Shown here: one piece after another, positions 13,566 to 21,699 of the stretch
Numbering within the stretch: the stretch's first letter is position 1
Layout: the number at the start of each line of letters is the position of its first letter
NCBI GenBank assembly: GCA_023663945.1
Contig: JAMPGL010000027.1
Location: 1-51,971, forward strand
Length of the DNA: 51,971 nucleotides
DNA from: Lachnospiraceae bacterium
Lineage (GTDB): Bacteria > Bacillota > Clostridia > Lachnospirales > Lachnospiraceae
Reading direction: 5' to 3'
The notes under the pieces: model-generated
The model's database searches: none
Seen by the model: only the letters and a program-made list of their open reading frames with translations
Told to the model about the DNA's origin: nothing
Translations under genes and position numbers: made by a program

Positions 13566-13631
13566 ACAGTATAAATTTTGTCCTGACCAGAGCCTCAGAC
13601 ATTTCCTGGTGTATGTAAAAATGAGCTTGTC

Positions 13632-14081
13632 ATGGTGAGTACGAAGACTTATAATAAGTTTAAACAAAAGGAAAACACCAAAGCAACAAAAGAGGAAGTA
13701 AAAGTGCATCTGGTTGGAAGAATAAACAGGGAAATTTACAAGTGCATAACAGATGACATTTTGACAGACGAGGTGATTATCACTGATGAGAGGATTCGGC
13801 ATATAAAAGAAAGACGGGGAAAGGAATTTTACAATATATATGCAGACAAGTTTATTGAGATCCTTCAATCTCCAGACTATATTTTTTCAGATAAGAGCAA
13901 TACAGCGTTAGCTTGCAAAGAATTTGTAGAAGATGGTAAATTTGTAAATGTTGTTTTACGAATAGCCGTTTCAAGTGATAATCCGGAATACAAAAATTCA
14001 ATTATAACTGCTATTGGCGAGAATAGAAAAAGATTTCAGCAGAGGATGCGTAATAATAATCCGCTTTACAAAAAGGGATAG
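13632..14081 (+). CDS. PBECR2-like nuclease (BECR-fold toxin domain)
   Basis: The 149-residue protein ends in a domain that I recognise as PBECR2, a barnase-EndoU-ColicinE5/D-RelE-like nuclease. Its hallmarks are the ITDERIRHIKERRG start, the EILQSPDYIF block, and the DNPEYKNSIITA block followed by a basic C terminus ending NNNPLYKKG. Such domains occur on phage proteins and polymorphic toxins and are predicted RNases. The first 45 residues are Lys-rich with no known fold. No good ribosome site precedes ATG 13632, so the 5' part may be lost or translation weak. The promoter of the tandem RNA lies inside its last codons. Whether the RNA restrains this nuclease is an open question. Confidence 0.65.
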   Translation: MVSTKTYNKFKQKENTKATKEEVKVHLVGRINREIYKCITDDILTDEVIITDERIRHIKERRGKEFYNIYADKFIEILQSPDYIFSDKSNTALACKEFVEDGKFVNVVLRIAVSSDNPEYKNSIITAIGENRKRFQQRMRNNNPLYKKG

Positions 14082-14093
14082 TAAATGTATAAT
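14065..14093 (+). promoter_or_regulatory. Promoter of the tandem structured RNA
   Basis: TTTACA (14065-14070), a 17-base spacer and TATAAT (14088-14093) match the sigma-A consensus at 11 of 12 positions. The -35 box lies within the last codons of the upstream nuclease gene. The predicted start is near 14100. Confidence 0.8.
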
Positions 14094-14118
14094 GAGCGTA
14101 TATTAAATAAAGCTTTAC

Positions 14119-14228
14119 CCAAATAGCTATTTGAGGTGGTAAATTTCGTAGCGACCACACGCCGCTGGTATGACAGGGGAGACCCGAGAGATGCAGGAGG
14201 ATGCTACGCCTGCCAAATAGTTATTTGG
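14119..14228 (+). repeat. Tandem RNA, copy 1
   Basis: P1 is 14119-14133 with 14214-14228. P2 is 14136-14139 with 14155-14158. The GNRA hairpin is 14176-14185. P4 is 14193-14197 with 14209-14213. The loop-loop pair is 14147-14152 with 14203-14208. Confidence 0.8.
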
Positions 14229-14257
14229 TTTAGCTAAATAGACCAATAAAGAAAAGT

Positions 14258-14355
14258 GATTGTTTGAGGTGGAAGATTTTGTCCCCGTCCACGCGCGCTG
14301 GCTTGACAGGAGAAATCCGAGAGATGCAGGAGAATGGGATGCCTGCCAAACAATC
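14258..14355 (+). repeat. Tandem RNA, copy 2; P1 doubles as terminator stem
   Basis: P1 is 14258-14266 with 14347-14355. P2 is 14269-14272 with 14289-14292. The GNRA hairpin is 14309-14318. P4 is 14326-14330 with 14342-14346. The loop-loop pair is 14280-14285 with 14336-14341. CTTTTTTT follows P1 directly, so closing P1 would also end transcription. Confidence 0.8.
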
Positions 14356-14469
14356 CTTTTTTTATTAGTGAATTAGCAAGAGCACCGGTAAGACTGAGCA
14401 GAGGAGCTTCTTTCCAGTATGGAGATGAGGAAAATAAATTTTGCATCACTAAAAATATTATGAAAACGG

Positions 14470-14509: not shown

Positions 14510-14593
14510 GCAGGAATGGCGGAATTGGCAGACGCGCACGGTTCAGGTCCGTGTGGTAGCAATACCATGAGAGTTCAAGTCTCTTTTCCTGCA
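14510..14593 (+). tRNA. tRNA-Leu (anticodon CAG)
   Basis: A complete cloverleaf with acceptor GCAGGAA/TTCCTGC, anticodon stem CACGG/CCGTG around loop TTCAGGT (anticodon CAG), a long class II variable arm TGGTA-GCAA-TACCA, and T-loop TTCAAGT. The discriminator base is A at 14593; CCA is not encoded. It reads CUG. Confidence 0.96.
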
Positions 14594-20469: not shown

Positions 20470-21699
20470 GTGGTAGAAAATCAAAACATTGAGTGGAAAG
20501 AATCATGGCGCGATGAATATTTGAAATGGATATGTGGATTTGCTAATGCCAGGGGGAGGAAAAATTTATATCGGCATAGATGACACGGGTAAAGTTATTG
20601 GTATACAGAATAGTAAAAGGCTCTTGGAAGAAATACCCAATAAGATTCAAACAAATTTGGGATTTTTTGCAGATGTGAATTTGTTATCAAAAAATGGTTT
20701 GGAATATATTGAAATTATTGTAAGCCCAAGCAGTTATCCGGTAAGTTATAAAGGTGAATATCACTTTCGAAGCGGCAGTACAAAACAAGTATTGCGGGGT
20801 ACGGCATTAACGGAATTTATATCTTCAAAAACAGGGATACGTTGGGAAGATTCTGTGATTGAAGGGGTAACTGTGGAGGACTTAGACAAGGAAAGCTTTG
20901 ATATTTTCCGTCGGGAAGCAGCCCGAAGCAAACGCATGACAAAAGATGATTTGAATATGAGCAATGCAGAACTCTTAGATAGTTTGGGGAAGGCTCTAAT
21001 TTGCTGTATCAGGACGAAGTGACAGGATCGTTGTTTATGCAGGCTGAACGTATAATAGAATTGATATATTTAAAATATTTGAAAGCACCTATCACTTATG
21101 ACAACTTAACCAGAGTAGAAACTTATCCCTTTCCCAAAGATGCCGTGCGGGAGGCTCTTTATAATGCACTTGTACATTCTCGCTGGAGTGCTGGAATACC
21201 TATACAAGTCCGCATTGAAGACGATGCAATGTATATTAGTAATGAATGCGTATTTCCATCCGATTGGACAAAGGAGTCTCTGTTACAAAGGCATCAATCA
21301 CGACCATATAACCCTAAAATTGCAAAAGCATTTTTCAGAGCGGGCTACATTGAAAGCTGGGGAAGGGGTATTCAAAAAATCTTTGAAGTGTGCAGCGAAT
21401 ACGGAACGTTACAACCAGAATATTTAGTACACTCAGAAGATATTATGATAAAGTTAGCTGCTGTTCCGACATCTGATAAACAATTTTCAAAGCCGGATTC
21501 TAAAGCTGAGCTTATAGATTTGAAAATAAAAGTAATGGAATATTTGCAAAAGAAACCCACTTCAACTCAAAAGGAACTACAGGAAGTCTTTAATGAAACA
21601 AGAACGCATATACAGGGAATCATTAAAGAATTGGTAAATGAGGGTATGATAGAGCGCAAGGACGGAAAACGATTTGGATATTGGGAAATAAAAAAATAG
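20470..21699 (+). pseudogene. AlbA_2/AAA_4 ATP-binding regulator, frameshifted and internally deleted
   Basis: The gene starts at GTG 20470 behind GAGGAGGA and encodes the AlbA_2 opening NIEWKESWRDEYLKWICGFANA. A frame change in the AGGGGGAGGAAAAA run (about 20550-20563) moves the reading to the frame carrying GGKIYIGIDDTGKVIG. A second break near 20990-21005 joins LLDSLGK to LLYQDEVTGSLF in another frame. Intact relatives have roughly 70 more residues at that point. The last part (GHKL-like AAA_4 block REALYNALVHSRW, then GRGIQKI) and a C-terminal winged helix from about 21520 are intact. With two frame changes and a deletion, a working protein is unlikely. A second, intact AlbA_2 gene lies at 50163. 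Confidence 0.85.

Follow-up and report, generated by a model that had tools for sequence, protein, structure and literature searches.

In the AbiF/RCd22 system of Clostridioides difficile, a phage-encoded toxin is neutralised by an RNA that interacts with it directly (PMC12373285). The polymorphic toxins of the MuF type, as characterised in PMC5576092, consist of a phage head protein with a C-terminal toxin domain, and PBECR2 is described as a predicted RNase that occurs in polyvalent and MuF proteins of phages (PMC5512222). Skipping-rope motifs are listed among phage non-coding RNAs in a phage-host paper (PMC8501573), and the skipping-rope pseudoknot (pk_1) serves as a figure example in the Rfam 14 paper (PMC7779021). 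Here we describe a locus in which a gene for a PBECR2-family nuclease is followed directly by two skipping-rope RNAs. The window, by which we mean the whole 51,971-nucleotide stretch analysed, comprises positions 1-51,971 of JAMPGL010000027.1 from a Lachnospiraceae bacterium (assembly GCA_023663945.1). We consider it likely that the locus is a toxin-antidote cassette in which the RNA counters a BECR nuclease, either as an immunity element or as a type III-like antitoxin.

Both RNAs lie on the forward strand and score above the 36.7-bit gathering score of RF02924: copy 1 at 14126..14221 (50.9 bits) is of the toxin's own (cognate) type, and copy 2 at 14259..14354 (46.2 bits) is of another type and a candidate orphan immunity RNA. 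A sequence-only reading of the window had proposed two structured copies in a tandem design, which the Rfam placements uphold, and had held that the RNA fits no known consensus. The match to a named Rfam family, an outcome that this reading had itself listed as refuting, removes the claim of a new RNA family; with the pseudoknot already in Rfam 14, the kissing loop is not new either. Inspection of the sequence confirms that the P1 stems differ between the copies yet pair, and that the GNRA hairpins GGG-GAGA-CCC and GGA-GAAA-TCC are present, both as that reading had it. Its six-base loop-loop pairs were likewise found, in agreement with the pairing of homologues, as CGTAGC (14147..14152) with GCTACG (14203..14208) in copy 1 and TGTCCC (14280..14285) with GGGATG (14336..14341) in copy 2. 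It had all six loop pairs changing between the copies, but two pairs differ at both bases, two more at a single base (giving G-U), and the remaining two are identical.

The proposal of selection for RNA structure holds: across 25 long-form homologues, from which the structure tested was itself derived, 96.0% of cells pair when the pseudoknot is included, as against 32-44% when partners are slid by 1-3 columns in the same sequences. The loop-loop helix pairs in 91.3% of cells, and four of its six pairs show changes on both sides. These 25 sequences constitute our RNA model, R1, which was built from long forms because a MAFFT alignment mixing long and short forms was out of register. The fold of copy 1 with its flanks beats 200 of 200 shuffles (z -3.6); that of copy 2 is weakly better than its shuffles (z -1.7), 10 of 200 equalling it.

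By sequence and fold, copy 1 extends to 14119..14228, with P1 lengthened to 15 bp (14119-14133 pairing with 14214-14228) and a weak T-run (TTTAG) directly after it. The terminator proposed by the sequence-only reading stands in part: a run of seven T is present at 14357..14363, and copy 2 could plausibly form a non-canonical terminator by prolonging its P1 with pairs into this run, whereas a canonical terminator scan of the window's RNA stretch found none. Among 113 toxin-proximal RNAs, counted without a shuffled control, P1 can be extended by at least 3 bp in 83, a T-rich tail follows in 78 and both are seen in 67.

The partner gene is an open reading frame of 149 aa at 13632..14081 on the forward strand, ending just upstream of copy 1. 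Its assignment as a PBECR2-family nuclease, and hence a predicted toxin, draws on Pfam (PF18810, E 2e-8; 34.9 bits against a cut-off of 27.1 bits) and on alignments of its relatives. The likelier start, judged from the sequence, is GTG 13704 (125 aa), behind AGAGGAAG at 13691-13698; a protein begun there agrees at its N-terminus with stand-alone relatives, and a promoter-like TTGTCA-N17-TATAAT (11/12) lies before this start, at 13627-13655. One His (alignment column 38) is invariant in 48 toxin sequences, the window's included, and in the 24 rows listed of the toxin alignment Asn-Ser-x-x is followed by Thr or Ser; at a second position, His in nearly all sequences, the window protein has Arg. 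Foldseek against BFVD gave six matches at E <=0.001, the best to a phage minor capsid protein (E 1.7e-10). NCBIfam and PADLOC returned no family for the nuclease at E 0.01, a PDB sequence search gave nothing convincing, and nucleotide comparison of the locus with phages and plasmids gave no useful match; viral scans with single proteins found no relative, or one (L162), in which the RNA is present.

Skipping-rope RNAs show a patchy distribution, as for mobile genes: at E <=0.001, 15 of 37 genus-level genomes have a match, as do 63 of 344 at order level and 28 of 398 at phylum level. The source genome has a third RNA copy at G000:C52, where a second, divergent toxin-RNA cassette is seen (G000:C52:85812-85891; L060:7134-7568). 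In the window itself, a tRNA match of 48.4 bits, absent at the gathering threshold, lies right downstream of the RNA array at 14510-14593 and is a possible integration site, and a short ORF at 20534-21022 has an SLFN_AlbA_2 domain.

The 344 order-level genomes yielded 105 RNA matches, six of them below the RF02924 cut-off. A profile grown from the window nuclease found 59 ORFs in the flanks of these matches; 58 of them, the exception being L118, end 18-86 nt upstream of the RNA on the same strand, and 58 match Pfam PBECR2. Starting instead from Pfam PBECR2, an RNA lies downstream on the same strand in 40 of 47 cases in the order sample, the remainder being two contig ends and five genes without the RNA, and in 12 of 14 cases among the 398 phylum genomes, including a truncated toxin (G647). 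G650 has its RNA past the 3' end of the toxin but on the other strand, and G746, whose PBECR2 match scores below the Pfam cut-off, has it at a distance of about 1.9 kb. Context was examined for 26 of 34 phylum rows (five were already counted and three had no locus), two of which have less than 500 nt of upstream sequence.

A protein-only scan with A2, an alignment of RNA-linked toxins, gave 36 viral contigs and 152 genome loci, of which the best 80 were analysed; since A2 stems from RNA-linked toxins and 10 of the genome loci were already in the order set, its result, a same-strand R1 match within 200 nt downstream at 79 of these best 80 loci and 34 of the 36 contigs, speaks to constancy within the clade, and the Pfam PBECR2 counts are the less biased. 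The median gap is 34 nt in the same 80 genome loci and 34.5 nt in the viral contigs. The misses are one contig end in the genomes and, in the viruses, one contig end and one insertion. That insertion (L275:5380-7650), with a 623-aa transposase-like ORF, splits the toxin from its RNA; the flank is duplicated, so that the RNA retains a promoter copy. In all 113 pairs counted the RNA is downstream of the toxin. The sequence-only reading had named type III antitoxin RNAs as one likeness, and this near-obligate pairing with a PBECR2 nuclease supports it; given such consistency, the RNA is most likely the nuclease's antidote.

Five PBECR2 genes with different C-termini have no RNA, four of them from one genus (L157-L160, in G086, G244, G207 and G233) and one in G306:C36 (L156); these are perhaps domesticated branches. 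At four further loci (L081, L125, L152, L169) other toxin-like genes stand right upstream of the RNA: RelB/ParE (gap 36), a RelB-like ORF with YafQ (gap 18), PIN, touching an RNA of 36.3 bits, just below the cut-off, and HEPN with a nucleotidyltransferase (gap 22).

The promoter TTTACA-N17-TATAAT noted in the sequence-only reading was recovered by our scan at 14065..14093 (forward strand, 11/12 matches) and is likely the RNA's own, although the stretch scanned held 5 promoter-like sites against 2.4 (sd 1.9) in shuffles. What that reading had not mentioned is that the -35 box falls within the last codons of the toxin (CTT TAC A, Leu-Tyr-Lys). Its relatives repeat this arrangement: the best -35 box is TTTACA in 107 of 113 toxin-proximal RNAs, an exact TATAAT follows in 76, and the boxes TTTACA/TTGACA plus TATAAT are matched without mismatch in 74 and with one in 30. 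In the order set, a promoter of at most one mismatch precedes 52 of 66 toxin-linked RNAs, as against 2 of 105 control stretches taken 330-400 nt upstream. The -35 box sits at the same place in the toxin's last codons in 91 of 113; the Tyr codon there is TAC in 104 of 111 cases, compared with 148 of 646 Tyr codons elsewhere, and CTT precedes it in 101 of 111. The promoter's position and this codon bias indicate that conservation of the Leu-Tyr-Lys tail reflects, at least in part, a DNA signal for RNA synthesis.

The RNAs are matched to toxin type. Of 172 toxin-RNA pairs, 136 passed the helix threshold for loop comparison (36 were dropped). Eight toxins with an RRG motif (the window's, L083, L136 and L297-L301), 54-98% identical, all have the loop CGUAG, which occurs in one of the 128 other pairs; the initial RRG pattern caught nine, the ninth (L103, with QRA and a different loop) being placed among the 128. 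In the 106 pairs left after dereplication at 85%, correlation with toxin distance is highest for the kissing loop (r 0.743), followed by loop 1 (0.720), P2 (0.700), P4 (0.607) and P1 (0.394), the highest permuted r being 0.32. As P1 is equally linked to the toxin gene, linkage alone fails to explain the gap between kissing loop and P1, although P1 may show a lower r from saturating sooner. Copy 1 is 0.85-0.94 identical to the RNAs of the five nearest toxins, copy 2 0.74-0.77.

A six-frame scan places a toxin match within 400 nt upstream of 66 of the 105 order-set RNAs, with tandem copies and split genes included, and leaves 39 orphans; in two of these a toxin fragment runs into the RNA (G362:C29) or the toxin is 832 nt off (G108:C60). 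In L080, L137, L118 and L317 the toxin is split or truncated and the RNA whole. RNAs lacking a toxin are common and toxins of the RNA-linked type seldom lack the RNA, the pattern that an antidote should produce. Since the RNA follows the toxin gene immediately and in the same orientation, a read-through mRNA could carry it, and it might control the toxin at the mRNA level, as a type I-like or 3' UTR element, rather than by binding the protein. We regard this as unlikely: the RNA has its own conserved promoter-like sequence, is not antisense to the toxin gene, conserves its tertiary pairing and is matched to toxin type, and the orphans retain 7.3 of 8 P1 pairs (7.6 in the rest), with a promoter of at most one mismatch in 15 of 39.

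The RNA might also be something that the nuclease requires or processes, a cofactor or preferred substrate in the role of activator, guide or decoy. ToxN cleaves its own antitoxin precursor (PMC5086642), and here too a compact structured RNA adjoins a nuclease, with variable loop bases matched to nuclease type; such a role nevertheless seems to us quite improbable, the variable loop segments pairing with each other, so that no free guide is seen, and RNAs with no recognised nuclease nearby being common.

The nuclease gene of the window is a stand-alone PBECR2 ORF without a MuF fusion, whereas relatives are fused. That the RNA serves phage packaging or assembly, tied to the portal/MuF region by analogy with the packaging RNA of phage phi29 (pRNA), would suit its kissing loop and the many partner ORFs that are phage-head MuF or minor capsid fusions, but is very improbable given that 64 of 116 partner ORFs, the window's among them, are shorter than 180 aa, so that the link needs no capsid domain, and that 42 of 43 long partners carry Pfam PBECR2.

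Tandem RNAs are found in other genomes also, more than one RNA being present at 11 of the best 80 of 152 genome loci and 1 of 36 viral contigs. The sequence-only reading had been reminded of cooperative ligand-binding RNAs; a riboswitch or ligand-sensing tandem is rejected because tandems are a minority and the copies differ in type, copy 2 resembling the RNAs of another toxin type. We used 12 tandems in which a toxin was recognised and another RNA followed downstream, leaving out G138:C70 (toxin split over frames), G258:C44 and G019:C3 (no toxin match) and L244/L245 (extra RNA upstream). In 11 of the 12, the window included and L230 excepted, the RNA of the nearest toxin is closer to the proximal copy. 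When the distal copies of the tandems are compared with cognate RNAs, the best match goes with a toxin that shares 28-74% identity with the local toxin; this match is weak in L243 and L101. Copy 2 of the window comes closest to the cognate RNAs at L202 and L195 (identity 0.93), where the toxin shares 50-52% identity with the window nuclease. The second skipping-rope RNA upstream of the toxin in the two upstream cases (L244:2783-2881, L245:2738-2827) suggests neighbouring cassettes.

In the toxin-antidote cassette that we favour, the upstream gene would encode a toxic BECR-type RNase (PBECR2), and the RNA would be transcribed from the promoter embedded in the 3' end of the toxin gene and closed by its own P1 stem. 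Folded into a compact kissing-loop structure, it would bind the nuclease and keep it inactive, as in type III systems, and toxin types would go with RNA types that differ in the kissing loop and the neighbouring helix. In phages, the nuclease often makes up the C-terminus of a MuF or minor capsid protein and may enter along with the injected DNA; the RNA would then serve the prophage as its means of immunity. Additional RNAs, whether downstream copies such as copy 2 or orphans, could cross-protect against other toxin types. We also lean, with less assurance, towards a general reading of skipping-rope RNAs as immunity factors of phage polymorphic toxins, in which each type of PBECR2 nuclease would have an RNA of its own with specificity set by the kissing loop, promoters would lie in toxin codons, and tandem and orphan arrays would act against the toxins of other phages.

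What is new here is the RNA's nuclease partner, not the RNA family. The window copies share helices and pseudoknot with RF02924, whose Rfam entry types the family only as an sRNA gene and gives no nuclease partner. In the available text of the literature naming skipping-rope RNA or PBECR, no link between the two was found, nor were an embedded promoter, type matching or mixed tandems; the discovery paper of the RNA, reportedly from 2017, is outside that scope. The pairing gives the Rfam family a testable function and supplies a widespread predicted phage nuclease with a partner.

Like the type III systems ToxIN, CptIN and TenpIN, the locus sets a pseudoknotted RNA beside the gene of an RNase toxin, here a predicted one, and in both the RNA is proposed to inhibit the protein. 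Canonical type III loci have the RNA upstream in one operon with a terminator between (PMC5086642), whereas here it is downstream in 113 of 113 pairs and preceded in 104 of 113 by a promoter of at most one mismatch; its domain of about 95 nt, mostly single-copy in relatives, is also unlike type III. The toxin differs too: that of type III has the MazF/Kid-like ToxN fold (PMC5086642), while the partners here are PBECR2 by Pfam (58 of 59 and 42 of 43). If our reading is right, RNA antitoxins extend to another toxin fold and gene order. AbiF/RCd22 resembles the window tandem in having an Rfam motif (RF03085) in two copies (PMC12373285), but its protein is unrelated (Abi_2 family), its RNA lies upstream of the gene, and both motifs serve one toxin, unlike the window copies of two types. 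For MuF polymorphic toxins, an immunity gene is expected right downstream, which matches the position of the RNA, and small immunity proteins have been proposed (PMC5576092), whereas the downstream partner here is an RNA. If this is true, an RNA fills a role otherwise ascribed to immunity proteins, and RNA enters polymorphic-toxin immunity, where mixed arrays may record the toxins that a lineage meets.
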